Assembly (NCBI RefSeq): GCF_021389935.1
Contig: NZ_CP089979.1
Location: 5,685,001 to 5,749,000, forward strand
Origin: Fulvivirga ligni
GTDB taxonomy: Bacteria > Bacteroidota > Bacteroidia > Cytophagales > Cyclobacteriaceae
Direction: 5' to 3'
Length of the DNA stretch: 64,000 nucleotides
The translations under genes and the position numbers were made by a program. Below are positions 8,691 through 40,567 of this stretch, piece after piece. The first letter of the stretch is position 1. Each line of letters starts with the position of its first letter. Below the pieces are notes generated by a model. That model worked only from the letters and a program-made list of their open reading frames with translations. It was not told where the DNA came from and ran no database searches.

Positions 8691-9140
8691 TTATATATAA
8701 TCATCTATTTCTGGTATTATTGGACGGAAAAATGATTTCAATTTTTTAAGACTTTCTTCGGTTGTCCCATAGATTTTAATTATATCAATTGGACGCTTTC
8801 CGGTATTATCCATTAAATTAATATTTGCGCCATTATCAATAAGTAGCTTTAATTTTTCAATGTCTTCAGGATAAGGTTGATCCCTCTCACTTTGAATCAT
8901 GCCATCTATTACATAATCAAACATCAATCTGGTTGGATTCCCCATGTCAATATTAACATCAGCTCCTTGATCTATAACAAACTGTAAAACTTCTGTTTTA
9001 TCTGAATTTATTGCTGCTATAATTGGTCTTGTGTCATAATCATATTTCACATTTATATCTGCGCCCATCAAAATTAATCTATTTGCTTCATCTAGATTTC
9101 CTTGATGAATATATCCACTGAGTCCTATATTTTTATCCAT
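8691..9140 (-). CDS. Ankyrin-repeat protein (cassette-like ORF)
   Basis: 149 residues containing about three ankyrin units: GNLDEANRLILMGADINVK, then DKTEVLQFVIDQGADVNI, then IEKLKLLIDNGANINLMD, ended by TGKRPIDIIK. No signal peptide. Ankyrin repeats mediate protein-protein contact; the partner is unknown. The ORF belongs to the same-strand run of short unrelated genes, with a core-like ACTTACAAC 62 bases upstream of its start and an R2/REP repeat just after its stop. Confidence 0.75.
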   Translation of the reverse strand: MDKNIGLSGYIHQGNLDEANRLILMGADINVKYDYDTRPIIAAINSDKTEVLQFVIDQGADVNIDMGNPTRLMFDYVIDGMIQSERDQPYPEDIEKLKLLIDNGANINLMDNTGKRPIDIIKIYGTTEESLKKLKSFFRPIIPEIDDYI

Positions 9141-9201
9141 TTTATTGGTCAGATCAACATCTAGTTCATCACCTGATGCTTAATAATTATACTTTTTAAT
9201 G

Positions 9202-9258
9202 ACTTACAACGTTTAATTTAAAATGCGTTTTAATGCATTTTCACATAGTGCTGTGGTG
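9202..9258 (-). repeat. attC-like palindromic linker
   Basis: A 57-bp element related to that at 7772-7826. The shared core reads GTTTAATTTAAAATGC then GTTTTAATGCATTTT, a 7-bp stem (AAAATGC at 9220-9226 with GCATTTT at 9235-9241). The ends are ACTTACAAC (9202-9210) and GCTGTGGTG (9250-9258), partly complementary. It lies directly behind the stop of ORF 9263-9505. Confidence 0.45.
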
Positions 9259-9262
9259 TCTT

Positions 9263-9505
9263 TTACTTTTCTTTTAGTTTAGTTTCAGTTCTCTGGATAA
9301 CAATATTCCCTTTTTCATCTAATTCATTTGCATGCTTAACCTCAACAGTTAATTCATCACTGATAAGCAATTTCAGTGCTGCCTTAGATTTTTCTCGAAG
9401 GATATTCCAATCATCTTCATGTTTTTCCATTTCAAACCAAAATTCATCGTCTTTTTCTTTACTCCATTTGTCAGTGAGTGAGTCGAAAACCTCTGAAACC
9501 CGCAT
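9263..9505 (-). CDS. Small charged hypothetical protein (cassette-like ORF)
   Basis: 80 residues, highly charged, predicted mainly helical at the N-terminus (SEVFDSLTDKWSKEKDDEFW) and beta at the C-terminus (LTVEVKHANELDEKGNIVIQ). No export signal. No family recognised. It starts 31 bases after the stop of the preceding ORF; that gap contains CACCCTAAC on the minus strand, the complement of a core-like GTTAGGGTG. It ends just before an attC-like linker. Confidence 0.55.
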   Translation of the reverse strand: MRVSEVFDSLTDKWSKEKDDEFWFEMEKHEDDWNILREKSKAALKLLISDELTVEVKHANELDEKGNIVIQRTETKLKEK

Positions 9506-9536
9506 GCACTATACACATTGTTAGGGTGTCGTTCTT

Positions 9537-10115
9537 CTATTCACATAATTTCTTCAATTCCTTTTTATTCTCTACCCTTTTTAGTGTACTTATATTATCC
9601 ATTAAAAAGTCTCGAATATCTTCAAATTTTTGGTCAATAAATTGAGGACTTGCTAATCCAAAAATCTTGTCGTCCATAATAATACATGCAAATAATTGAT
9701 TTGATACTTCTTCATTCATTCCATCAGGCATCTTGTACCACCAAATAAGGACATCCTTATCACTTGATAATGGGGCTTTTTGCATCTGTGCCTCAAGTTT
9801 TGTTTGGAACTGTCTCGACATATAATTTACTTCACTTGAAACATAATTTGCGAGAATCTGTAATTCTGTTAATGATTTTCCTTCAATCACATAATTGGCA
9901 GTATCAACTATCAAATATTGAAGAGCATACATATCCACCGATATTACATTTTTTCTTTCAGTAGTTTTTACATCGCCTAGTATCTTAATAGTATAAGTTG
10001 ATTTATCTTTTTCGATAATCCAGAATGCTTTTGTTGAATCACATCTCTCAACTGTCTGTCCAAACAAATTGCAAACTGTTAGAATTAACGTAATTGCACC
10101 AAATAATTTCTTCAT
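9537..10115 (-). CDS. Secreted hypothetical protein (cassette-like ORF)
   Basis: 192 residues with an N-terminal signal peptide (MKKLFGAITLILTVCNLFGQ). The mature part contains alternating strands and a helix (LTELQILANYVSSEVNYMSRQF) and ends in KKELKKLCE. I do not recognise the domain. A core-like CACCCTAAC lies about 95 bases upstream of the start (10211-10219 on the plus strand). It is one of the same-strand orphan ORFs. Confidence 0.65.
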   Translation of the reverse strand: MKKLFGAITLILTVCNLFGQTVERCDSTKAFWIIEKDKSTYTIKILGDVKTTERKNVISVDMYALQYLIVDTANYVIEGKSLTELQILANYVSSEVNYMSRQFQTKLEAQMQKAPLSSDKDVLIWWYKMPDGMNEEVSNQLFACIIMDDKIFGLASPQFIDQKFEDIRDFLMDNISTLKRVENKKELKKLCE

Positions 10116-10438
10116 TTTTTCCTTTTTTAAAACCAGGTTTATCTCTAATTAGTAATCATTTCTAATATCAATTTTATGCTCTATTCTTCCAAACTGTGTC
10201 TTAATGAATGCACCCTAACGATTTGTATATGGCAAGTAGGGCAGTAAAAAGCACTGAACTATCGAGTTGCTCCGAGCCAAATGGTTTATTTTGTTTTTAA
10301 TTTATTCATTCTTAAAAGCCAAATCAATGATTTGGCGGTGTTTCAAATAACTATGTTTGGTAACGCCAAGGCTAGCCATCAGGCCGGGCACTTGTTTGCG
10401 TTTTCTTTTCAAGTTACAATTTCCTATCGTTAGAGCAA
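10116..10438. other. Palindrome-rich intergenic linker
   Basis: 323 bases without a gene. It contains a perfect 9-bp palindrome around one base (GCCAAATCA-A-TGATTTGGC, 10318-10336). Its flanks are complementary: CCCTAACGAT at 10213-10222 and ATCGTTAGAG at 10426-10435. The outer inverted cores and internal stems are what a long attC-type recombination site would show. No homology or coding potential is visible. Confidence 0.5.
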
Positions 10439-10951
10439 CTAGCTTCCAGGCTCTGTTTTCCACCCGGTTGTGGCTAGCTGATGTTGTAGGCTGGCTTTGC
10501 TTCTCAAAAACTCGATCAGGCTAATTAGATTATTATTGATTTCCTGATTCGAATTCCATTCAAGTTTTTTATCCCCTAATTCAAATTGGCAGAACAATCC
10601 ATCTAGCGTAATTCCGCCCCAATTGGTTAGCTCCAAATCTAATTTTAATAGCCCTTCAAGCTTATTTAACTCAACTGGATTCAATGCTATATCATGATTT
10701 GTAACTGCGAGTCGATCAAGATTATAAATCCCTTTGTCAAATCTCTTATTGTCAAATTCAGCGTTCCAGATTGCGAGTTTCAGGCTGCTTGTTTTTCCTT
10801 CAAATTGAGTAATTGAAAATGCATGAGTCAGAAGCTGTCCAAGTTCAATGTATTGGAATCGCAAACGTTGAGATTTAATATCTTTTCGGTTTGACAATTC
10901 TTCAATTATCTGATTCCAGTATTCTGTTCTGCTATTTGAGAATTTTTCCAT
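10439..10951 (-). CDS. Hypothetical protein bracketed by inverted GTTGTAGGC cores
   Basis: 170 residues, no export signal; helical N-terminus (SRTEYWNQIIEELSNRKDIK) and a beta-rich middle (LKLDLELTNWGGITLDGLFC). Family unknown. The motif GTTGTAGGC lies 13 bases upstream of the start (10964-10972, minus strand), and its inverse lies inside the last codons (10483-10491). The C-terminal tail SLQHQLATTGWKTEPGS is therefore encoded by the palindromic site itself, a feature typical of cassette genes whose stop falls within attC. Confidence 0.6.
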   Translation of the reverse strand: MEKFSNSRTEYWNQIIEELSNRKDIKSQRLRFQYIELGQLLTHAFSITQFEGKTSSLKLAIWNAEFDNKRFDKGIYNLDRLAVTNHDIALNPVELNKLEGLLKLDLELTNWGGITLDGLFCQFELGDKKLEWNSNQEINNNLISLIEFLRSKASLQHQLATTGWKTEPGS

Positions 10952-10968
10952 TCTAATTTGCTAGCCTA

Positions 10969-11058
10969 CAACATCCGTATAAGAGACACAAAACATTCCC
11001 TTATTTCTTTTATGGGTCAATCTAATTAATTTCATTTTAAAAATGAATAGCAGTGTTT
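10969..11058. repeat. Dispersed repeat R1, copy B
   Basis: Second copy of the repeat at 8486-8575, starting CAACATCCGTATAAGAGACA and ending GAATAGCAGTGTTT. It directly abuts the GTTGTAGGC core upstream of ORF 10439-10951, in the same position relative to the ORF as copy A has to ORF 7833-8471. Confidence 0.75.
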
Positions 11059-11154
11059 TGTGAGCCTTTTAATATCCTTTAATAATTGGCGGCTGTGCTA
11101 AAAAATGTAATAATTATACCACCATGCCAAGCATGGCAGCAACAGGTGTAAGAT

Positions 11155-11469
11155 TTATTGTTCTTGACTTAATCTGAATAAAAGTTCGTGAAGCTCTAGT
11201 TGTTCGCACTGGTACTCGTTAATAGTACCATATTCAAAATAATCGGATATATTAAAGCCTTCTTCTATGTCATTATACCAAATAACTTGTGAACCAAGAA
11301 TTGCAACTACCCAAAAGCCTTCTCCTTCCTGACCATATTCATTTTCTTACCATTTTACTAGTGGAATTTGAATGAAGCTCCAGAAATGTTGAATTTGGTT
11401 GTTTAGCCTATTTTCCGACTGTTTGATTAAGTCGAGCACTTCCTCTTTTGTAATTGGAGTCCATTCCAT
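11155..11469 (-). pseudogene. Hypothetical gene interrupted by an in-frame stop
   Basis: A frame from ATG 11469 to TAA 11155 encodes 104 residues but carries one in-frame TAA at 11347-11349 (codon 41). Before the stop the product reads MEWTPITKEEVLDLIKQ to LVKW. After it, ENEYGQEGEGFWVVAILGSQVIWYNDIEEGFNI continues in the same frame in several pieces of conserved-looking sequence. The downstream part matches my recollection of a widespread small hypothetical family (FWVVAI-x-VIWYNDIE-x-GFNIS). The stop appears to be a point mutation of a Tyr or Trp codon. Read-through or sequencing error cannot be excluded. Confidence 0.6.
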
Positions 11470-31461: not shown

Positions 31462-32010
31462 TTAAGGAATAGGGAAAATTCCCGGATCATTACCATCAGG
31501 ATCAACAAATGGATCACTATCATCACAAATACCATCATTATCATTGTCTTCACATAAACCTCCTCCTCTATCGGGATCAAAATCTGTAGAGACAAAACAA
31601 TTTCTTACTGAAGACATGTAAGTATCTCTTAATGTACAACCGGATGCAGGACTCACATTGGCAATTTGAACATGAACTGATGTGTTTTTGTAACTTTTAC
31701 TGAGATTAGAAAACACTGGTTGACCACTAGATTTAGTAGCGTTAGCTGGGATTTTTAGCAATGCGACATCAATAACTGTATTATCTGCAGTTATATAAAC
31801 TTCGACGGTTCTTTGGTAAGGAACAGAATAAGTACCTCCTGTGACATATACATAATATTCACTACCCAATGTTCCATCTGAACTATAACAATTACCCCCT
31901 GAATACAAAGCAGACAATATATAGCAATCGTCTGTCTGAGAAACTGTTGACTGAGAATAAGCAAATTGACACACAACAAGAAGAAGAACTAAAACATTAA
32001 TTATTTTCAT
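31462..32010 (-). CDS. Secreted protein with acidic calcium-binding-like tail
   Basis: The ATG at 32010 gives a signal peptide (MKIINVLVLLLVVCQFAYSQ); the upstream extension to 32049 is rejected. 182 residues remain. The body is beta-rich with paired cysteines (DDCYIL, GGNCYS, SGCTLR, RNCFVS), probably disulphide-bonded. The C-terminus (LCEDNDNDGICDDSDPF, then DPDGNDPG) has the DxDxDG pattern of thrombospondin type 3 or similar calcium-binding repeats. Function unknown. It is 68 bases downstream of the potassium channel gene and may be an independent unit. Confidence 0.7.
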   Translation of the reverse strand: MKIINVLVLLLVVCQFAYSQSTVSQTDDCYILSALYSGGNCYSSDGTLGSEYYVYVTGGTYSVPYQRTVEVYITADNTVIDVALLKIPANATKSSGQPVFSNLSKSYKNTSVHVQIANVSPASGCTLRDTYMSSVRNCFVSTDFDPDRGGGLCEDNDNDGICDDSDPFVDPDGNDPGIFPIP

Positions 32011-32078
32011 AAAATTTACTTTATAAATGTTAAATCCATAAGTTAACAAAATAAATTTTATTGAAAAAATTACATTTG

Positions 32079-33104
32079 CTATTCCCCCTCCATCACTCCA
32101 AAGGCGGCCTCTAATTTCTTCTTCGAATTTCCATCTGATATGAGAATTAAATAATCGCCCGCCTGAATTTGCTGCCCTTTGCTCGGGTTTTTAATGACTT
32201 TGTTATCCGAAACCATTCCTATAGCTACAGCATTAAATTCTTCTTTCAGCTGATGGAAAGCATCCAAATAATCGCCACCGGCAAATCGATTAGACTTTAA
32301 AATTCGGTATTGTTGAATATCAGAATCTCCGTCCGAAATACTGGTAGTGATCAAATCCTCTGTATATGAGGCCACTGACGGTTCAAAAATGTAGCTAGCC
32401 ACTAACCTTGAGGCCACTTCTGACTGCGCTATTACATAGCGAATACCGGCATTCATAAAAGTATCTTTTAGCGCAGGATTAGCACATGTAACAACAATGC
32501 TGCATTGCTGATAAGCTTTCTTCAGATTCAGCACAAAAACCAGCGTTTCAGTATCTTCTTTAAAATTCACAAAAACACCGTTTGACTTATTCAAATTCAC
32601 CTTTTTATAGGCCTCCATGTTATGAAAGTCAGCAAACATGCAGAAGCAATTATCCGATGGAAAAATGTCTTTAATAATATCTACATCCGCCTTTGAGTCT
32701 ACCACAAAAGCAATTTTATGGCCCGAATTAAATATCTGCTCTGCTACTTGTCGGCCAAACTCATTCCAGCCGATAATTACATAATGACCTTCAAAGTCTG
32801 TACCCCAGAAACCGTACTTTTTCTTTTCCATATACTGATTAAATTTACTGGTGATCTCCCCTATAACATAGCCCAGCACGCCTATACTACCGATAATTAG
32901 AAATAATCCTATTACTTTTCCAACAGGCGTAACAGGATAAAAGTCGCCGTAGCCCACCGTAGTAAGCGTAACGATGGCATACCAAAAGGCATCTGATATA
33001 CTTTTTATGTTAGCATCTGGAGATTTTTGCTCTACAACACCTATCAGGCATATTACACCCACATAGGCAAGAAAAGCTAATATGTAATATCTCCATTTTC
33101 TCAT
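32079..33104 (-). CDS. Two-helix potassium channel with RCK/TrkA domains
   Basis: 341 residues. Two membrane helices flank a pore loop with the selectivity filter TVGYGD (near residue 48). A cytoplasmic Rossmann RCK domain follows (HYVIIGWNEFGRQVAEQIF) and then a TrkA-C-type domain (residues about 250-335; KGQQIQAGDYLILIS). The layout matches MthK/Kch-type channels gated by ligands such as Ca2+ or nucleotides. Its start codon overlaps the stop of the AdoMet decarboxylase gene (TAATG), so it belongs to the polyamine/PspA operon, of which it is the last gene. Confidence 0.92.
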   Translation of the reverse strand: MRKWRYYILAFLAYVGVICLIGVVEQKSPDANIKSISDAFWYAIVTLTTVGYGDFYPVTPVGKVIGLFLIIGSIGVLGYVIGEITSKFNQYMEKKKYGFWGTDFEGHYVIIGWNEFGRQVAEQIFNSGHKIAFVVDSKADVDIIKDIFPSDNCFCMFADFHNMEAYKKVNLNKSNGVFVNFKEDTETLVFVLNLKKAYQQCSIVVTCANPALKDTFMNAGIRYVIAQSEVASRLVASYIFEPSVASYTEDLITTSISDGDSDIQQYRILKSNRFAGGDYLDAFHQLKEEFNAVAIGMVSDNKVIKNPSKGQQIQAGDYLILISDGNSKKKLEAAFGVMEGE

Positions 33105-33472
33105 TATTCTGGTGTCTTTAACGGTGCACTCTCAGTAATCTCCTCAGTTTCCCATTTCAACTCCAAACCCATTACTGCTACCTGCTCCTTAAACTCCATA
33201 GTTTTCATATGATTACAACCACTAAGTTCTACATAACTCCAGCCACTCTGAGGGAAAGTATGAATGGCCAGATGAGATTCAGCTAAAAGCCATATGGCAG
33301 TATAGCCTTGCACGGGAAAGAAATACTCAGAGAAATTAAGCACATTGAACTTTGTAGAAGCTAACAACTTATCAAAGGTAATCTTTAAGGTTTCAGGCTC
33401 TATAGTTTTCACCCATAGCCTGAGACTATAGATTTTGGCGGGTAATGATTTGTGTTCTGGAGTCTGATTCAT
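33104..33472 (-). CDS. S-adenosylmethionine decarboxylase-type protein
   Basis: 122 residues, the length of the prokaryotic AdoMetDC proenzyme. The self-cleavage site is AESHLAIHTFPQ: the Ser after Glu would become the pyruvoyl group. The downstream Cys in VELSGCN corresponds to the catalytic Cys. The enzyme makes decarboxylated AdoMet, the aminopropyl donor for spermidine synthesis, which fits the spermidine synthase gene directly upstream (2-base gap). Overlaps the potassium channel start by one base. Confidence 0.88.
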   Translation of the reverse strand: MNQTPEHKSLPAKIYSLRLWVKTIEPETLKITFDKLLASTKFNVLNFSEYFFPVQGYTAIWLLAESHLAIHTFPQSGWSYVELSGCNHMKTMEFKEQVAVMGLELKWETEEITESAPLKTPE

Positions 33473-33473
33473 A

Positions 33474-35015
33474 TTAATATAAGTCCCAGTTTCCTTTCAA
33501 ATAATATTTATAAAGCACAGGATTGTGAATTCTGTTTACTTCTACAGAGTCAGTATTTCCCACGTAAATCCCTTTTCCAAAGGAGGTTACCAGCTGCATA
33601 GCCTCATGGTCTATCCATTTGGTATCGACATCGAACTCAAGCCTTTGCAGCGTGCCCTTTAAATCTTCATAGGGCGATTGTTTCTGCCCAAGACTCCAAC
33701 CCCACTCACCCATAGTAACCACCTGATTATGAAGTGGAACTGTATTAAAACCAGCCTCCTCCATAGTCTTAACTATGCATTTAAAAGCTCTGGTGGCAAA
33801 GTAAGGACTTGCAGCTTGTGTCACTATTACTCCCTGAGGTCTTAGCAACCTATAACAGCTTCTGTAAAACTCGTAACTATAAAGCCGCCCCAATTCTACA
33901 GTTCGTGGATCGGGTAAGTCAATAAAAATGGCATCATAAAATGACGTGTCCTTCTGAATGAATTGATAACCATCTGTATTTATCACGGTAACCCTGTCAT
34001 CCGACAGAGAATTCTGGTTTAGACCGGTGAGAATAGGATTCGTTTTAGCCAGCTCCGTCATGGCAGGATCCAGATCTACCAGTTTAATATTCTTTACCGT
34101 TGGGTATTTCAATATCTCTCGCGCTGCACAGCCATCGCCACCACCAAGCACCAGTACATTTTCAGGGTGCGGATGCAAAGTAAGTGCAGGATGTATCAAC
34201 GGCTCATGATACATAATCTCATCTCTGGTAGAAAGTTGCTGATTACCATTTAGATATAACCAGTAGTCATCTTTCCATTGAGTAATCACAATCCTTTGAT
34301 ATGGTGTTTGTTCTGTAAACACTACTTTATCTTTATACTTGGCCTGTTCTCCGTATAGGATAATCGGCTTCGTTATCACCAACCCTACCACCAGCACTAT
34401 CAATATAGCTCCACCAGAAGGGATAAGGAGTTTTTTATCTGCTGCAGACATCACCTTTTTCAAGGAGACTATCAGTAAAAGCGCAACTAAAAGATTCACC
34501 AGGCCCAGCACAAACGGAGTATACATCAAACCTAAAAATGGCAAGCCTATGAAAGCGAAAAACACCCCTCCCAGCAAACTGCCGTAGTAATCGTTCTCCA
34601 GAATTCCTGAGATATTATATTTCAGTTCCTCAAATTCATTATTGATCCGAACCACCAGCGGCACCTCCATCCCGATGAGCATACCAATACCTATGGAAAG
34701 TATATAGATCAAAGACTCATATGAGGTACTATAGGCCGACATGGTATACACCAGTAATGGAGCAAAAGACACCAATAATGACAAGGCGAATTCCACCAGC
34801 AAAAACCACTTTAGAAGATGCTGATTAAAGACTTTGCTAATTCTACTTCCCAACCCCATGGAAAAGAGCATGAGAGAAATAATCATAACCCACTGAAAGA
34901 TAGAATCTCCCAGAAAGTAAGTTGCTAATGTTGATAATATATATTCAGCCACCACACCGGAAAAACCGGTAGCAAAGATGGCCGCCTTCAAAAGTGTTGA
35001 CCTACGGGCGATCAT
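33474..35015 (-). CDS. speE: Membrane-fused spermidine synthase (polyamine aminopropyltransferase)
   Basis: 513 residues. The first 210 hold about seven membrane helices (for example VLGLVNLLVALLLIVSL). The C-terminal half is a complete aminopropyltransferase: YQRIVITQWKDDYWLYLNG, the AdoMet-binding VLVLGGGDGCAAREIL, LVDLDPAMTELA and the catalytic Asp region FIDLPDPRT, then LYSYEFYRSCYRLLRPQG. It transfers the aminopropyl group of decarboxylated AdoMet to putrescine or a related amine at the inner membrane surface. No polyamine precursor gene (ornithine or arginine decarboxylase) is nearby. Confidence 0.9.
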   Translation of the reverse strand: MIARRSTLLKAAIFATGFSGVVAEYILSTLATYFLGDSIFQWVMIISLMLFSMGLGSRISKVFNQHLLKWFLLVEFALSLLVSFAPLLVYTMSAYSTSYESLIYILSIGIGMLIGMEVPLVVRINNEFEELKYNISGILENDYYGSLLGGVFFAFIGLPFLGLMYTPFVLGLVNLLVALLLIVSLKKVMSAADKKLLIPSGGAILIVLVVGLVITKPIILYGEQAKYKDKVVFTEQTPYQRIVITQWKDDYWLYLNGNQQLSTRDEIMYHEPLIHPALTLHPHPENVLVLGGGDGCAAREILKYPTVKNIKLVDLDPAMTELAKTNPILTGLNQNSLSDDRVTVINTDGYQFIQKDTSFYDAIFIDLPDPRTVELGRLYSYEFYRSCYRLLRPQGVIVTQAASPYFATRAFKCIVKTMEEAGFNTVPLHNQVVTMGEWGWSLGQKQSPYEDLKGTLQRLEFDVDTKWIDHEAMQLVTSFGKGIYVGNTDSVEVNRIHNPVLYKYYLKGNWDLY

Positions 35016-35058
35016 ACGCTATTCATTCCCTTCAAATATCAGTTTAATTCTTCCTGGC

Positions 35059-35928
35059 TTACAGACACCAGGTAATTAGCACAGAACCTCCAATGTAAGC
35101 AAAAGCCTCAATGATGGCAGCTCCTACATTTGGTTTTTCCTGGTTTACTATTTCATCGGTTAATTTTTCACCGGGTAGCAAAATTTTATCGGTGATATAC
35201 CTCATTACTGGTAATAACAATAAACCTACCACTACTTCAAGGCCAGCTTCGCCCAGCGTTTCGCCCCAGCTTTCAAAATCTCCCATAAGTCCGAACTTTA
35301 TGAGGTTAGCCATGGCGATGATAGCTCCTGCAAAACCAATTCCTACTGCTACATTATCTTTTTCAATGTGCTCATGGATGTCATACGGTGTGATAAGGTT
35401 ATACACCCAGCCCACCAATAGTAATGCTACCTGACCTAACAACCAGAATACAACGGCAGAGATAATTCCACCTACCAGGCTGTTGCTCTCACCAGTAACC
35501 GCACCAAAAATGATAAGACCTGATGCTATAGAAACAGCTCCTTCTACTACCCCAGTACCTGCATTTTGATCCTCAATAATCTCTTTTCTTACTGAGAACT
35601 TACTCAGCAAAATCTTATCCGTGATCACAATGGAGATGTTCAAGAGCACAATAGCCAGACCACCATAAACAGAAATGACCATTACATCATTCCAAAGGCC
35701 TTGAGATGGCCCCACAATGGCACTACCAATAGCTATAAGCAGACCTACAAAATAGCCTACATGCGAAAGGCTGAAAGCCAAGTTATCTTTTTTAACCAGC
35801 TCTTCCTTTACGTTGATAGATCTATGGAAAAGTTGATAAACGAGTTTGCCTATTAGAAAGAATAAAAAGGCCAATGCTATATAAATAATGGCCTCGTATA
35901 CTACAAATGAAAATTCAGAAAGACTCAT
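35059..35928 (-). CDS. DUF350 (YjfL-like) membrane protein, duplicated domain
   Basis: 289 residues with about eight membrane helices forming two DUF350 units. Each unit starts with a pattern such as KDNLAFSLSHVGYFVGLLIAI or KDNVAVGIGFAGAIIAMANL, the hallmark DN-x-A acidic-Asn motif next to a membrane helix. It corresponds to YjfL of the enterobacterial yjfIJKLM operon. Function unknown; a channel or transporter role is often suggested. It sits between the spermidine synthase gene and two membrane-anchored unknowns in the same operon. Confidence 0.85.
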   Translation of the reverse strand: MSLSEFSFVVYEAIIYIALAFLFFLIGKLVYQLFHRSINVKEELVKKDNLAFSLSHVGYFVGLLIAIGSAIVGPSQGLWNDVMVISVYGGLAIVLLNISIVITDKILLSKFSVRKEIIEDQNAGTGVVEGAVSIASGLIIFGAVTGESNSLVGGIISAVVFWLLGQVALLLVGWVYNLITPYDIHEHIEKDNVAVGIGFAGAIIAMANLIKFGLMGDFESWGETLGEAGLEVVVGLLLLPVMRYITDKILLPGEKLTDEIVNQEKPNVGAAIIEAFAYIGGSVLITWCL

Positions 35929-35954
35929 GTCAAAGTGTTGGTTTCAGGTGAAAT

Positions 35955-36773
35955 TTATTTACCAAAGCCTCCGCTTCTGGATCTAAAAGAAGACCCGCTG
36001 GATGATCTGGAAGAACTACGCGATGTCTTGCTGTAGCTGCTGCCCGAAGAATAACTTCTGGATTTAGTGGCTGATGCCGATCTTGACACCTGACTTCTCA
36101 CCTTACTTTTAAAGGTAGATGGCTTAGACCCCCAAGTAGTAGTTTTTCCTGTATTTGAAGATGTATAGCTTCTGGTACCATAAATAGTTCTTCCTGACGG
36201 ACCATAATATGAACGACCTCTGCCGTAATAACCTCCGTAATAATCATCCCAATAGGCCCTTCTGGCCGGGTATGTCATTAAATTAAACATGGAAGAAAGG
36301 AAAGCATACTTGCCATAGAACTCCCAGAATGAAGACCCATTTCTTTCTACCCAATGGCCGTACTGAGGATTACCCACATAATTAGTATAGCCTGCCGGCG
36401 CAGCTTCTTTATGCACTACACCATCTTTTTTAGAGGCAATCTCCATACCCATATCATTCAGATGCTGCTCAAAAAACACATCTGACACGGGGTACCATTC
36501 TGTTTCCTTGGCTGTAACAGAATCACCTTCATTAGATACTATTCTATATTTATGCTTATACTGAGAATCATCCGCATCCATATCATATAGGATAATGGAA
36601 AAGTCCTGCTTATCTGATAGGGACTTGATGATATCGTCCAAAGGAGACTTTTGCCAGTTTTCCAACTGTGATGACTGTCTGTATTCGCTATCACTACGTC
36701 GACCAGAACAGGCTTTGATAATCACAAAACCTATGATCACTGCAATGATAATTTTTGCTAATCCGTTGTTCAT
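35955..36773 (-). CDS. Membrane-anchored protein with Ser/Arg-rich C-terminal tail
   Basis: 272 residues. An N-terminal helix (LAKIIIAVIIGFVIIKACSG) anchors it. Residues about 40-160 form a globular alpha/beta region (FSIILYDMDADDSQYKHKY). Then come Gly/Tyr-rich repeats (YYGGYYGRGRSYYG) and a long low-complexity Ser/Arg/Lys tail ending SSGSSFRSRSGGFGK. Such tails are often disordered and can bind anionic surfaces. Genes of this kind recur in yjf/PspA-polyamine clusters in my memory, but no function is known. Confidence 0.65.
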   Translation of the reverse strand: MNNGLAKIIIAVIIGFVIIKACSGRRSDSEYRQSSQLENWQKSPLDDIIKSLSDKQDFSIILYDMDADDSQYKHKYRIVSNEGDSVTAKETEWYPVSDVFFEQHLNDMGMEIASKKDGVVHKEAAPAGYTNYVGNPQYGHWVERNGSSFWEFYGKYAFLSSMFNLMTYPARRAYWDDYYGGYYGRGRSYYGPSGRTIYGTRSYTSSNTGKTTTWGSKPSTFKSKVRSQVSRSASATKSRSYSSGSSYSKTSRSSSRSSSGSSFRSRSGGFGK

Positions 36774-36819
36774 TTAATTAAGCTTTTGCAACACCACTTG
36801 AGTATTGCCTTAGTTACAA

Positions 36820-37440
36820 TTATTCCTGTAAGTGTTCTTCCTTTATTTCTTGTGCTATTTTATAAGCACCATCTACTAATATTTCCGCCAGATTTTCAAG
36901 CCCTTCGAATACATATTGCAGATATACAAACCTGTCTTTCAACTCGTCAGTGCCTGGTTTGTAGTAGTAATCAATGCCCTTATCAAAATTGGCAGTAATG
37001 TTTTGTCCGTAGAATTCATTAAAATCCTCTACACCCATTAAAAAGTTTTGATGTACAGAATAGAACTTACTTATTTTCTTGAAAGTCTGAATATCAATCT
37101 CTTTCAGCACACCACTGTTCATCAGAGAATTGATAATAAGAATCTGCCAGTAATCACCGTAAAGATTATACTTCGAAGGCAGATTTCTATCAGCGATCAA
37201 GCTGTCCATCTGCATATCATTAGCCTTCAGTGTCATTAAAAAGCCTTTAGCATTTTCACGTTTTCCGGACTCGTAAAAGCTCATCAGATCTTCATAAATG
37301 GCTTGATATACTTCTCTTTTTCTGGCTTCTTCTGCCTTTCTGTCTTTGTATTCATTAAGAAGGAAAGCACAAAAAACGCCGGCAAAGACAATGACAAACT
37401 CAAAAAGATATTTAAATATGGTGCGCTTAACTGACATCAA
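36820..37440 (-). CDS. Membrane-anchored helical protein of unknown function
   Basis: 206 residues. One N-terminal membrane helix (FEFVIVFAGVFCAFLLNEY) is followed by a long charged helical region (KDRKAEEARKREVYQAIYEDLMSF broken by loops), probably periplasmic or cytoplasmic coiled helices, ending KIAQEIKEEHLQE. The start of this pattern (E-x-x-I-V-x-x-G-x-x-x-A-F-x-L-N-x-x-x-x) is common to unnamed Bacteroidota proteins. It follows the DUF4178 gene by 3 bases in the PspA operon, so a role in that membrane module is likely. Confidence 0.65.
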   Translation of the reverse strand: MMSVKRTIFKYLFEFVIVFAGVFCAFLLNEYKDRKAEEARKREVYQAIYEDLMSFYESGKRENAKGFLMTLKANDMQMDSLIADRNLPSKYNLYGDYWQILIINSLMNSGVLKEIDIQTFKKISKFYSVHQNFLMGVEDFNEFYGQNITANFDKGIDYYYKPGTDELKDRFVYLQYVFEGLENLAEILVDGAYKIAQEIKEEHLQE

Positions 37441-37443
37441 TTG

Positions 37444-37995
37444 CTATTTGTCGCTAGCAGGCAATATATTCGAAATTTCAAATTCATCAATATAATACCC
37501 GGCAGAAGCTTCAAAATCCTTCTCACCCCACTGCTCTATCGTAACCAGTGTTTCACCGGCCTGATCTTCATAATCCCAGCTAATGAATTCTTCCCACGAA
37601 TCGCCTCTTCCTATGTCATGGAAATATCCCGGAGCCTCTTCTTCCAGAAGGTATCTTTTGCCATTATAATCAAAGCTGGTTGGCGGCTTTTGGTCAGATA
37701 TAATCTGCTCTGCCACAGCATCTCCAAGCGCTCTGATTTTAATTTTCTCGCAGATAGACAGGATCAGTTCATCATCTTCTTCTAAAGAAAGAAAGACCGT
37801 TTTTTCTCCATTACTGATCTTATACTCTCGGGTGAAATAATTATCGCCCCAGTCATACTCATAGATGCTTTTCACCTCCCAGGTAGAAAGATCATAGTCG
37901 AACACAAAACCTACATCCAGATCTTGCACTCTTATATCAGTGCTGTCATAATGCGGCTCCTCTTCTTTCTTCTTAAAAAAATCAAACAGACCCAT
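37444..37995 (-). CDS. DUF4178 protein
   Basis: 183 residues, soluble. An amphipathic start (MGLFDFFKKKEEEP) precedes a beta-rich domain with the DUF4178 pattern: QDLDVGFVFDYDLSTWEVKSIYEY, then YKISNGEKTVFLSLEEDDE and RYLLEEEAPGYF. DUF4178 proteins are encoded with PspA-like, DUF350 and spermidine-synthase genes in many phyla. The biochemical role is unknown. It sits 15 bases downstream of the PspA gene. Confidence 0.75.
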   Translation of the reverse strand: MGLFDFFKKKEEEPHYDSTDIRVQDLDVGFVFDYDLSTWEVKSIYEYDWGDNYFTREYKISNGEKTVFLSLEEDDELILSICEKIKIRALGDAVAEQIISDQKPPTSFDYNGKRYLLEEEAPGYFHDIGRGDSWEEFISWDYEDQAGETLVTIEQWGEKDFEASAGYYIDEFEISNILPASDK

Positions 37996-38010
37996 AGTTA
38001 TCTAATTAAA

Positions 38011-38718
38011 TTATTGGCCTTTATTTTTCATCTTCGCCTTCAACTCTTCTAATGAAGCTGATGCCTTAAAAGATTTCTCGTCTAGAGCAGAATCAATTTC
38101 ATCATCAAGACTTTTGCTCTCATTAGCAATATCACCATAAGCTTCTGCCAGAGCCTCTTGCTGAGCCACTTTTTCTTTCATTTTCTCAAGCATACTCACC
38201 GTGCTGGAGCTATCTATTCCAGACATTTGCTTATTAATCTTCTGAGTAGCCTGACTTACTCTTGAGCGAGCCTTCAGTGTACGCAACTCATTTTCGTATC
38301 TGGTGATAGAAGACTTAAGTTTTTTCACGTTAGCATCTAGCTGAGAAATGTTAGTCTCAAATCTCTGTACCTCTTCTTCAGATCTTTTAGCACTTTCAGT
38401 AGCTTCTTCTTTTCTGGTAAGCGCCTCGGTAGCTAGTCTATCAGCTTCTCCCGGATCAATATCTCCTTTTTCAGCTCTCTGCAAAAGCATGATAGCCTTC
38501 TGCTCATATGAATTAGCCGTAGCTTTATGATCGTTCAGCTCTCTCTTGCTGCGAATAGCCATAGCCTTCACCTCTGCCAGAGCTTGTAAGCTCTTATCTA
38601 AATCAATCTTTAAATCCCTAATGCCTTGTTCAGTCATTTTGATAGGATCTTCTAACTTATCTATAGCTGCGTTAGTCTCTGCTTTACCTATGGTAAATAG
38701 TCTATTAAATATTCCCAT
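38011..38718 (-). CDS. PspA/IM30-family membrane-binding protein (YjfJ-like)
   Basis: 235 residues, almost entirely coiled-coil. The N-terminus (MGIFNRLFTIGKAETNAAIDKLEDPIKMTEQGIRDL) is the typical amphipathic helix and first helix of PspA/IM30. Long heptad helices follow (AKRSEEEVQRFETNISQLD, KLKSSITRYENELRTLKAR). The family belongs to the ESCRT-III superfamily and polymerises on stressed membranes. Length and neighbours (YjfI-like upstream, DUF350 downstream) identify the YjfJ subgroup rather than the PspF-regulated PspA. Confidence 0.92.
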   Translation of the reverse strand: MGIFNRLFTIGKAETNAAIDKLEDPIKMTEQGIRDLKIDLDKSLQALAEVKAMAIRSKRELNDHKATANSYEQKAIMLLQRAEKGDIDPGEADRLATEALTRKEEATESAKRSEEEVQRFETNISQLDANVKKLKSSITRYENELRTLKARSRVSQATQKINKQMSGIDSSSTVSMLEKMKEKVAQQEALAEAYGDIANESKSLDDEIDSALDEKSFKASASLEELKAKMKNKGQ

Positions 38719-38730
38719 GTCTAAAAAATT

Positions 38731-39126
38731 TTAATTTTTTGAAAATTCAATGATTTGCGAAGCATATTCGCTCAATAATAATTCGAGAGAGTTTAGCGTT
38801 CCTTCTAACTCATTCAGGTCCAGGTTTTCTAGTTGTAGCGTATCTCTGAAAAGTACCTTTGTACCAGTTTCATCCAACACAAACGCACCATGAATGATTT
38901 CTCTATTCTTCTTTAGCAGCTCTTCAAATAAAGCCTGAGATTTTTCCTGCACCTCAAACAAAAGGCCTTCTATTATAAGAATAGGATCTTCACAATCAAT
39001 AATTAAATTAGCTATACCTGAGCCATCTCTTTCTACCACAAAGAGCTCATCATTAGCATCTTCCTGCAGAATAGTAAATTCAAGCTCTAATAAAAAGGAT
39101 TTAACCTTGTCGAAATTTGCACTCAT
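38731..39126 (-). CDS. YjfI-like (DUF2170) protein
   Basis: 131 residues, cytoplasmic. Two alpha/beta portions include FLLELEFTILQEDANDELFVVE, then LLKKNREIIHGAFVLDETGTKVLFRDTLQLENLDL, which is the DUF2170/YjfI hallmark. It is the first gene of the nine-gene minus-strand operon, 12 bases upstream of the PspA gene. YjfI-type proteins are fold relatives of YbjN/type III chaperones and may bind PspA to control its assembly (inference). Confidence 0.8.
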   Translation of the reverse strand: MSANFDKVKSFLLELEFTILQEDANDELFVVERDGSGIANLIIDCEDPILIIEGLLFEVQEKSQALFEELLKKNREIIHGAFVLDETGTKVLFRDTLQLENLDLNELEGTLNSLELLLSEYASQIIEFSKN

Positions 39127-39328: not shown

Positions 39329-40567
39329 CTAAGCCGCCTTCTTTATTGCTGCCAAACGCGTAAGTAATGGTGGGTGAGAATAATTCACAAACACATAGGC
39401 CGGATGTGGATATAGGTTACTCAGATTATCCACTGACAATTTCTTAAGCGCCGTACCCAGCGCCTCTCCGTTATAAGTTTCAGCAGCATAAGCATCAGCC
39501 TCAAACTCGTTCTTTCTACTTAAAACATTCATTGCTATGCCTAAAAGTTTGGAAATTGGAGAGTAAAGCATGCCAAAGGCCAACAGATTCAAATGGATAC
39601 CTAGTTGCTCAGCTCCCAAAGCCAGTGATAAGTTTTCATTATAAATCATTAAAGACATCACATAAAGCATAACTCCTACTTGAAGTATAGAAAGTATAAA
39701 ACTTAGCACAATGTGTTTCTTTTTGAAATGCCCTACCTCATGAGCCAACACTGCCACCAGCTCATCTGTGGTATGATTATTTATGAGCGTATCATAGAGC
39801 ACAATCTTTTTCTTCTTGCCTATGCCTGAAAAGAAAGCATTAGCCTTGTTAGAACGCTTAGAGCCATCTATTACAAAAATGTTATCTAATGGAAAATTAA
39901 CCGTGGCACTGTAATCTTTAATAGCAGATTTTAAATCACCGTCTTCAAGAGGTGTTAACTTATTAAACAGCGGAAGAATAAGCGAAGTATAAAACATATT
40001 AGCACCGAATATAAATAGCGCCGCCACACCCCAGAAATAAAGCCAGAACTCCGCTCCAATATTCAATATCAGATAAAGAAGCAACCCGATCAGACCTCCA
40101 CCAACTATCGCAGTAAGTGCATAACCCTTAATTTTATCTATGACAAAAGTTTTAGGTGTTGTTTTATTAAATCCAAAACGCTCTTCTATCACAAAAGTGC
40201 TATACCATTGAAATGGAATATTAATGACATCAGACACTACGTACATAAGCCCGAAATAAGCCAGCGAAAGCCACACTTCATTATCGAAATACGGTCTTAG
40301 CAATGTATCCAAATAACCAAATCCTCCAAGACTCAACATAAGAAATGAAATGATAAAACTAAAAGAGCTTGTTAGGAATGAAAATCGCGTCAAAGTCTTC
40401 TTATACTCTAATGATTTTCGATACTTTTCTTCATTATAAAAGCTAGATATTTCCGGAGGCACTGTACTCTTACTTGCTTTCAGATTTGTGTAATCCAAAA
40501 CCTGTTCCAGCACGAAATCGAAAGTAATAATTCCAAGTATGATATATAGTATAATCTGTGGTTGCAT
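39329..40567 (-). CDS. M48-family zinc metalloprotease (Ste24-like)
   Basis: 412 residues with seven or so membrane helices, the length and layout of CAAX prenyl protease 1. The zinc site is LAHEVGHFKKKH (HExxH, near residue 275), and the third ligand is the Glu in NEFEADAYAAE. FVIDGSKRSNKANAFFSGIG precedes the site as usual. In bacteria these enzymes cleave membrane or misfolded proteins. The gene stands alone, with a TAGATTTG promoter element 18 bases upstream. Confidence 0.92.
   Translation of the reverse strand: MQPQIILYIILGIITFDFVLEQVLDYTNLKASKSTVPPEISSFYNEEKYRKSLEYKKTLTRFSFLTSSFSFIISFLMLSLGGFGYLDTLLRPYFDNEVWLSLAYFGLMYVVSDVINIPFQWYSTFVIEERFGFNKTTPKTFVIDKIKGYALTAIVGGGLIGLLLYLILNIGAEFWLYFWGVAALFIFGANMFYTSLILPLFNKLTPLEDGDLKSAIKDYSATVNFPLDNIFVIDGSKRSNKANAFFSGIGKKKKIVLYDTLINNHTTDELVAVLAHEVGHFKKKHIVLSFILSILQVGVMLYVMSLMIYNENLSLALGAEQLGIHLNLLAFGMLYSPISKLLGIAMNVLSRKNEFEADAYAAETYNGEALGTALKKLSVDNLSNLYPHPAYVFVNYSHPPLLTRLAAIKKAA

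Follow-up and report, generated by a model that had tools for sequence, protein, structure and literature searches.

The window analysed here comprises 64,000 nucleotides of the Fulvivirga ligni genome (Bacteroidota; contig NZ_CP089979.1, positions 5,685,001 to 5,749,000 of the forward strand). At 32079-39126 it contains an operon of nine open reading frames (ORFs), all on the minus strand, which fill the stretch with spacings of -1 to +46 bases. Two of the products are a Ser/Arg-tailed protein, here termed E, and an aminopropyltransferase fused to a transmembrane (TM) domain, TM-SpeE. Comparison across genomes revealed that the last residue of such tailed proteins follows the enzyme: a terminal Lys is present if, and only if, the genome holds a matching TM-SpeE, in 24 of 24 resolved genomes for the E family and in 11 of 11 for a different tail carrier, DUF4247. 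The view that the terminal Lys is functionally tied to TM-SpeE is thus well supported. Judging from these sequence comparisons we propose, with a probability of roughly 0.6, that TM-SpeE aminopropylates the C-terminal Lys of its partner, the operon being built around a module that modifies protein tails. The genes, lettered A to H and K, are listed below; AdoMet denotes S-adenosylmethionine.

38731..39126, minus strand: A, YjfI-like protein, CesT_Tir_1 (PF22550; Pfam 181.6 bits, E-value 8e-54)
38011..38718, minus strand: B, PspA/IM30 homologue (PspA_IM30; Pfam 157 bits, E-value 7e-46)
37444..37995, minus strand: C, DUF4178 protein (Pfam 81.8 bits, E-value 7e-23)
36820..37440, minus strand: D, ORF of 206 amino acids (aa) with one N-terminal hydrophobic segment/one TM segment (no Pfam family)
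35955..36773, minus strand: E, lipoprotein-like, with a conserved domain and a variable Ser/Arg-rich tail; proposed substrate (homologues, alignment; no family above cut-off)
35958..35972, minus strand: GGFGK C-terminal codons of E, the final Lys being the proposed aminopropyl acceptor (sequence, conservation)
35059..35928, minus strand: F, DUF350 (YjfL family) membrane protein, two tandem copies (Pfam 186 bits, E-value 3e-55)
33474..35015, minus strand: G, TM-SpeE, membrane domain plus aminopropyltransferase domain; proposed writer (NF002956 567 bits, AlphaFold2 (AF2), Foldseek)
33104..33472, minus strand: H, AdoMet decarboxylase (AdoMetDC; AdoMet_dc, Pfam 43.5 bits), proposed donor supply
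32079..33104, minus strand: K, potassium channel, Ion_trans_2 and TrkA_N (RCK), optional member (Pfam)

The nine-gene run, its families and its motifs (GGGDG, AESH and TVGYGD) had been described in a sequence-only reading of this DNA, and are borne out by the ORFs and by the matches to Pfam and NF002956. That reading also raised the possibility that the Ser/Arg-tailed protein is a polyamine-modified partner, and the comparative evidence presented here points the same way.

The terminal lysine and its enzyme

Protein E of the window ends ...RSRSGGFGK. Homologues were identified in 27 of the 58 related genomes searched, and 29 of the first 32 with closed ORFs end in Gly-Lys, the Ser/Arg tail itself varying in length and sequence. 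Over the TM-SpeE and control loci (loci and genomes carry the prefixes L and G, respectively) Lys is last in 64 of 67 E-family ORFs and Arg in three, while 63 of the 66 distinct sequences end in exactly Gly-Lys. In the three exceptions a stretch of basic residues closes with Arg. E homologues from further genomes (L142-L150) all have Lys as the final residue, with the second E copy of one genome (L149) displaying Arg-Lys instead of Gly-Lys. Towards the other end of the protein Cys22, which follows the hydrophobic segment, is invariant in 25 aligned E proteins.

The loss of the enzyme is mirrored by the loss of the Lys. Among the 27 E genomes, 24 were resolved, G405, G414 and G407 (in which a contig end cuts the tail) being set aside. 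Twenty-one of the 24 end in Lys, and all 21 contain a TM-SpeE of the E-linked clade, located beside E in 16 and elsewhere in five. The other three (G441, G445 and G428) end in Arg and none has an E-linked-clade TM-SpeE: G441 has no TM-SpeE match, G428 has only a TM-SpeE from outside the clade, and in G445 (L183) the gene is reduced to a remnant ORF of 224 aa, its sister genome (L182) keeping 523 aa. In a tree built from the E domain alone, tail excluded, the Arg-ended genomes occupy two separate places, indicating two losses. For DUF4247, 299 genomes of the phylum of L099 yielded eleven homologues, nine Lys-ended and two Arg-ended (G722 and G761). The expectation that TM-SpeE would accompany the nine and be missing with the two was written down before the enzyme was looked for; a full TM-SpeE is present in all nine of the former genomes and in neither of the latter (Fisher's exact test, 1 in 55; 1 in 45 if G449, whose enzyme had been seen earlier, is set aside). 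Both Arg-ended genomes have a soluble SpeE-type match, and in both PspA, DUF350 and DUF4178 still adjoin the tail protein although the enzyme is gone, providing a natural enzyme-less version of the operon. In four Lys-ended genomes (L214-L217) the order is DUF4178-PspA-DUF4247-DUF350-TM-SpeE, followed once by a K+ channel; the arrangement of the window operon thus reappears in a second phylum, where another protein bears the tail.

The Lys ending is not confined to these two families. Sixteen TM-SpeE proteins were searched against a species-genome collection, yielding loci for the best 80 of 561 relatives, and TM-SpeE loci derive from Bacteroidota, Nitrospinota, Thermodesulfobacteriota, Myxococcota, Acidobacteriota, Gemmatimonadota, Pseudomonadota, Bacillota and others. 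The carriers of Lys tails include one-TM proteins of 45-83 aa that end in ...His-Lys or ...Gly-Lys, 76-80 aa proteins directly upstream of TM-SpeE that end in ...Gly-Lys, E-like lipoproteins of 542-576 aa ending in ...Lys-Gly-Lys, DUF4178 proteins that bear the tail themselves (L007, L047, L099, L124 and L126), the DUF4247 protein (L121) and a 224-aa protein (L120). BLAST links the E family and L047 with L099, L124 and L126, leaving most of the small carriers apart, short proteins being hard to join.

The association was quantified by position. The slot was defined as the gene immediately 5' of DUF350, or, if the enzyme has no DUF350 before it, 5' of TM-SpeE, on the same strand and with a gap of <250 bases; this definition was set after the pattern had been noticed, and endings played no part in picking genes. 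Lys is the last residue of 74 of 97 slot genes, and Gly or His precedes it in 70 of those 74. In the same loci Lys ends 6 of 82 genes next upstream of the slot and 5 of 77 genes downstream of TM-SpeE, while unassigned genes of >100 aa end in Lys in 144 of 1155 cases and in Gly/His-Lys in 13 of 1155. These counts come from loci that are related to one another. Several of the 23 slots that lack Lys (for example L026, L029, L030, L032 and L056) probably hold a small ORF, lying between E and the enzyme, that is not a real gene; they were kept in the count.

Under a looser rule, which accepted small TM ORFs ending in Gly/His-Lys, a partner lies within 5 kb of the enzyme in 106 of 136 TM-SpeE loci. 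The chance rate, two in 219 kb of control DNA or ∼14 chance loci in 136, is appreciable, and weight was therefore placed on the slot and loss tests. Of the 30 loci that fail the looser rule, 11 have a local Lys-ended partner (L004, L007, L047, L099, L103, L120, L121, L124, L126, L136 and L137), eight are matched by a Lys-ended E at another site in the genome (L062, L064, L069, L185, L187, L188, L189 and L192), three are cut <600 bases from the enzyme (L070, L078 and L111) and three were left unclassified (L139, L186 and L190). No Lys-ended partner was found at the remaining five (L018, L066, L101, L132 and L182). A further locus, L017, passes only through a 36-aa ORF that was taken as a chance hit.

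A different ending accompanies a different polyamine enzyme. A search of 199 genomes of the phylum of L112 for the ATP-grasp glutathionylspermidine-synthase family (PF03738) produced 46 matches, spread over 41 genomes, and the 30 best-scoring of these matches were compared. Directly upstream of the ligase-family genes (n=25) there are 15 genes ending in Gly-Gly, four other tailed genes, which end in Ser, and six other genes; none ends in Lys. Downstream, Gly-Gly occurs in 0 of 22. In Escherichia coli YjfM ends ...GHWGG beside YjfC and YgiB ends ...RSMGG beside YgiC, RefSeq naming both YjfC and YgiC peptide-spermidine ligases, and the Gly-Gly tail is also found at two Bacteroidota loci with the ligase family (L017 and L018). 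A ligase requires a carboxyl group and an aminopropyltransferase an amine. The chemistry therefore suggests that the last residue would supply the group matching the enzyme, the carboxyl of Gly-Gly in one case and the amine of Lys in the other.

The aminopropyltransferase and the side on which it acts

The TM-SpeE of the window matches NF002956, 'polyamine aminopropyltransferase', at 567 bits (cut-off 472) over nearly its whole length, and its AF2 model has a mean pLDDT of 92.6. In Foldseek searches the soluble part retrieved the spermidine synthases 1jq3 and 1inl (E-value ∼1e-16 for 1jq3 and others), while by profile it is nearest to the Thermus triamine/agmatine aminopropyltransferase (3anx and 1uir). 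The motifs YHE, GGGDG and DxPDP are invariant, or at least 90% conserved, in 66 TM-SpeE sequences, and the membrane part contains the invariant acidic residues Glu24, Glu75, Glu117 and Asp142. The operon holds the sole Spermine_synth match and the sole AdoMet_dc match found in the 6.5 Mb, single-contig genome of the organism. A carboxyspermidine route was also considered, and the nspC match in this genome is weak (44.8 bits, below cut-off). The AdoMetDC retains the processing Ser and the catalytic His and Cys, the roles of these residues being taken from passages of PMC10407285.

The charge of the loops points to the side on which the enzyme acts. In 146 TM-SpeE sequences the mean numbers of Lys plus Arg in successive loops are 2.67, 0.03, 2.34, 0.25, 2.92, 0.57 and 2.98, and the sum over loops 1, 3, 5 and 7 exceeds that over the other loops in 146 of 146. 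Per residue, the presumed inner loops contain ∼0.20 Lys plus Arg and the presumed outer loops ∼0.03, a ratio of about seven. With seven TM segments and an N-terminus inside, this alternation would most likely place the catalytic domain outside the cytoplasm. The tails of the small partners are suggested by flank charge to be mostly outside too: of 25 proteins the N-side flank is the more positive in 18, equal in four and less positive in three. E and several DUF4247 proteins, in turn, begin like lipoproteins. An amine outside the cytoplasm would also fit the exported amine oxidase of some loci. In clusters with His-Lys carriers the gene directly downstream of TM-SpeE encodes a protein of 490-600 aa in 27 cases, and 24 of these proteins have a Tat-like motif. 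The control figure is 27 of 382 ORFs of >300 aa, the two sets having some proteins in common. The one such downstream protein tested, from L003, is a flavin amine oxidase by Pfam. These clusters (L003, L005, L009 and others) additionally contain, with the Tat-motif protein, a ∼350-aa hydrophobic protein that has no Pfam match in L003.

In the proposed mechanism AdoMetDC would supply decarboxylated AdoMet, from which TM-SpeE would move the aminopropyl group onto the side-chain amine of the C-terminal Lys of the partner, in the window that of E, generating a strongly cationic tail tip. Lys as the acceptor would be the simplest chemistry. Both the catalytic domain and the tail are most likely outside the cytoplasm, and a reaction located there would probably require the membrane domain of TM-SpeE to pass the donor across as well. 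DUF350 and DUF4178 would be accessory, while PspA/YjfI and the K+ channel may be optional add-ons that link the cationic tail to the handling of membrane stress in the cytoplasm; a role for the operon in membrane stress is itself putative.

Competing explanations

Several observations weigh against the proposed reaction. Just 15 of 56 E-containing loci have AdoMetDC within 6 kb and on the same strand, and the window AdoMetDC has Gln after HTxP where most homologues have Glu (Glu, Asp, Asn and Gln all occur at this position in related proteins); AdoMet, as opposed to ornithine or arginine, is its presumed substrate. Six TM-SpeE loci have no convincing Lys-tailed partner (L017, L018, L066, L101, L132 and L182), in a search that can readily overlook small ORFs and that included some short contigs, and Ser rather than Gly-Gly ends four of the 19 tailed genes upstream of ligase-family genes. 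With respect to topology, the presumed inner loops together comprise more residues (55 versus 29), which explains part of their excess of Lys and Arg, and the stretch following the last TM segment is moderately positive, with a mean of 1.68 Lys plus Arg in 14 residues. In the secondary structure of the AF2 model residues 131-184 form one helix, which the loop scheme halves, such that the model does not settle whether there are six or seven TM segments. We know of no precedent for an AdoMet-derived donor outside the cytoplasm, as an extracytoplasmic reaction would require. Finally, the tail could be a docking site rather than an acceptor.

This last possibility, in which the Lys tail docks with or regulates TM-SpeE by filling its acceptor site or recruiting it, and the real acceptor is a phospholipid, a glycan or another protein, accounts for the same correlation between tail and enzyme. 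It is consistent with the observation that only the last residues of the tail are fixed, and 'other substrates' are left open in passages of PMC11237479. We nevertheless consider it unlikely, as docking has no obvious need of a terminal amine, nor would it obviously lead to a swap to Gly-Gly beside a ligase family that would act on a carboxyl group. It is less probable still that TM-SpeE is an ordinary spermidine synthase held in the membrane, with polyamine and K+ flux restoring surface charge or potential after stress. The enzyme indeed has the fold and many active-site residues of spermidine synthases and is the sole Spermine_synth match found in the genome, but this explanation predicts neither the Lys rule nor the loss of Lys with the enzyme, and seven of the nine Lys-ended genomes of the Bacillota phylum contain a separate soluble SpeE-type match. 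Fusions of the MFS-spermidine synthase type, with AdoMetDC, are reportedly widespread, and such a fusion is said not to complement an E. coli spermidine synthase mutant. The sequence-only reading had likewise inferred that polyamine made at the membrane, plus K+ flux, restores surface charge or potential; free polyamine made there offers no account of why the last residue of the partner tracks the enzyme.

Very improbable, in our view, is that a factor encoded outside the cluster reads Gly-Lys as a signal for sorting or proteolysis, its correlation with TM-SpeE arising because tail and enzyme are inherited together as one operon. In favour of this explanation, related loci are not independent and the type of partner follows the enzyme tree. 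The Lys was, however, lost on two occasions in E and on another in DUF4247, the matching enzyme being absent in every case, while G426, G437, G439 and G443 keep the tail Lys even though E and TM-SpeE are >15 kb apart or on different contigs. Aminopropylation of the terminal Lys remains the explanation that we favour.

Conserved genes, optional members and known systems

Eight families, all but the 206-aa ORF, occur in the same order and on one strand in the window and in four further loci (L023, L024, L054 and L055), and the genes form a recurrent set. A fifth, L067, contains all eight families, but with AdoMetDC and the channel on the opposite strand, beside a second TM-SpeE. That second TM-SpeE match lies at 9036-11276 on the minus strand of L067, with its own K+ channel and AdoMetDC matches, next to the E-type operon. 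The 206-aa ORF is present in the window only, with no counterpart in the other loci searched, and in L023 and L024, which are of the same genus, the gene order is otherwise kept without it. It therefore looks like an insertion between DUF4178 and the tailed protein, outside a conserved set of eight genes. Its assignment as DUF6090-like was dropped as Pfam gave no support.

Profile searches on the same strand within 6 kb of TM-SpeE detected DUF350 at 105 of 140 loci, PspA at 29 and a K+ channel at 21. PspA/YjfI and the K+ channel therefore look like optional additions, users or regulators of the module rather than its core, and the central place that PspA had previously been given in the gene set is not upheld. 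The genome also contains a second YjfI-PspA pair (C1:1749769-1750452; L002 and L051), after which comes a 214-aa membrane protein, joined in L051 by a 723-codon ORF; this locus resembles a flotillin-type PspA operon. Upstream of the window operon, directly and on the same strand, is an M48 metallopeptidase gene (39329-40567), HtpX-like by NCBIfam but below cut-offs; in L023 and L024, too, a similarly sized ORF lies ahead of YjfI, the likeness being one of size only. Just downstream of the K+ channel, a 195-aa secreted-looking ORF (31462-32049) has an Asp-rich C-terminal stretch and no family above cut-off. A sigma-70 promoter scan was uninformative (28 sites versus 29.9 expected), and the promoter and terminator scan revealed nothing above shuffled sequence.

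Lys side chains bearing an aminoalkyl group occur in the deoxyhypusine of eIF5A and in the polyamine-modified lysines of diatom silaffins, where, in contrast to what is proposed here, the enzymes are different and the lysines internal. For the MFS-spermidine synthase fusion, which reportedly occurs with AdoMetDC and DUF350, an acceptor other than putrescine is said to have been proposed and none named. TM-SpeE belongs to the same enzyme class, and a candidate acceptor is now put forward. The E. coli yjfIJKLMC genes share with the window a PspA family member and DUF350, and have a DUF1190 protein with a Ser-rich tail beside a ligase; in ygiBC, too, a DUF1190 protein is encoded beside the ligase. 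Both differ from the window in having an ATP-grasp ligase and a Gly-Gly rather than a Lys tail. E was considered as a distant DUF1190/YgiB homologue and rejected, as hhalign aligned just 16 columns, in the signal peptide, and no PF06693 match to E was found in the Pfam search; the resemblance is one of layout, not shown homology. In microcin C, MccD/MccE add an aminopropyl group at the C-terminal end of a peptide conjugate, the target, according to passages of PMC6495379, being the phosphoramidate of a peptide-nucleotide and not Lys as proposed here.

The link between PspA and polyamine genes, previously taken to be undescribed, is in fact on record, and the operon class is already published. 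Passages of Ravi et al. 2024 (PMC11237479) describe, as a second group, a CesT/Tir-PspA dyad with a 7TM-fused spermidine synthase, YjfL/DUF350, DUF4178 and a lipoprotein ('Ctha_1186 domain'), and, as a third, an ATP-grasp ligase, a K+ channel, DUF350 and DUF1190. The window shares with the second group CesT/Tir, PspA, the multi-TM spermidine synthase, DUF350 and DUF4178, one transcript being presumed, and adds AdoMetDC and the K+ channel, the latter described there for the third group. E, with its Cys22 after a hydrophobic segment, may be the counterpart of the 'Ctha_1186' lipoprotein. In the same passages the authors propose that PspA systems monitor polyamines or the aminopropylation of other substrates; a term search of the main text of PMC11237479 found neither 'lysine' nor 'periplasm'. 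The open-access literature searched contained no C-terminal Lys rule and no protein acceptor of TM-SpeE, and the new element here is the enzyme-matched tail.

More broadly, and at slightly under even odds, the data may reflect a modular, widespread bacterial system that, outside the cytoplasm, puts polyamine groups on the very last residue of proteins anchored in the membrane. Its chemistries would be interchangeable, Lys serving a membrane aminopropyltransferase and Gly-Gly a spermidine ligase, and its tail would be portable between unrelated proteins and decay when the enzyme is lost. In some lineages an exported amine oxidase could edit the product, and PspA and K+ channels would be plugged in for the control of membrane stress.

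To our knowledge no acceptor has been established for the common membrane-fused spermidine synthases. By naming a residue on a named partner, the proposal makes that acceptor testable by one mass measurement. If correct, it would add a protein modification made outside the cytoplasm from an AdoMet-derived donor, and would provide a function for DUF4247, for DUF1190-like proteins and for many unannotated membrane proteins of 45-83 aa. It would also explain the recurrent association of polyamine genes with PspA, which would reflect cationic protein tails at the membrane and not the making of polyamines.

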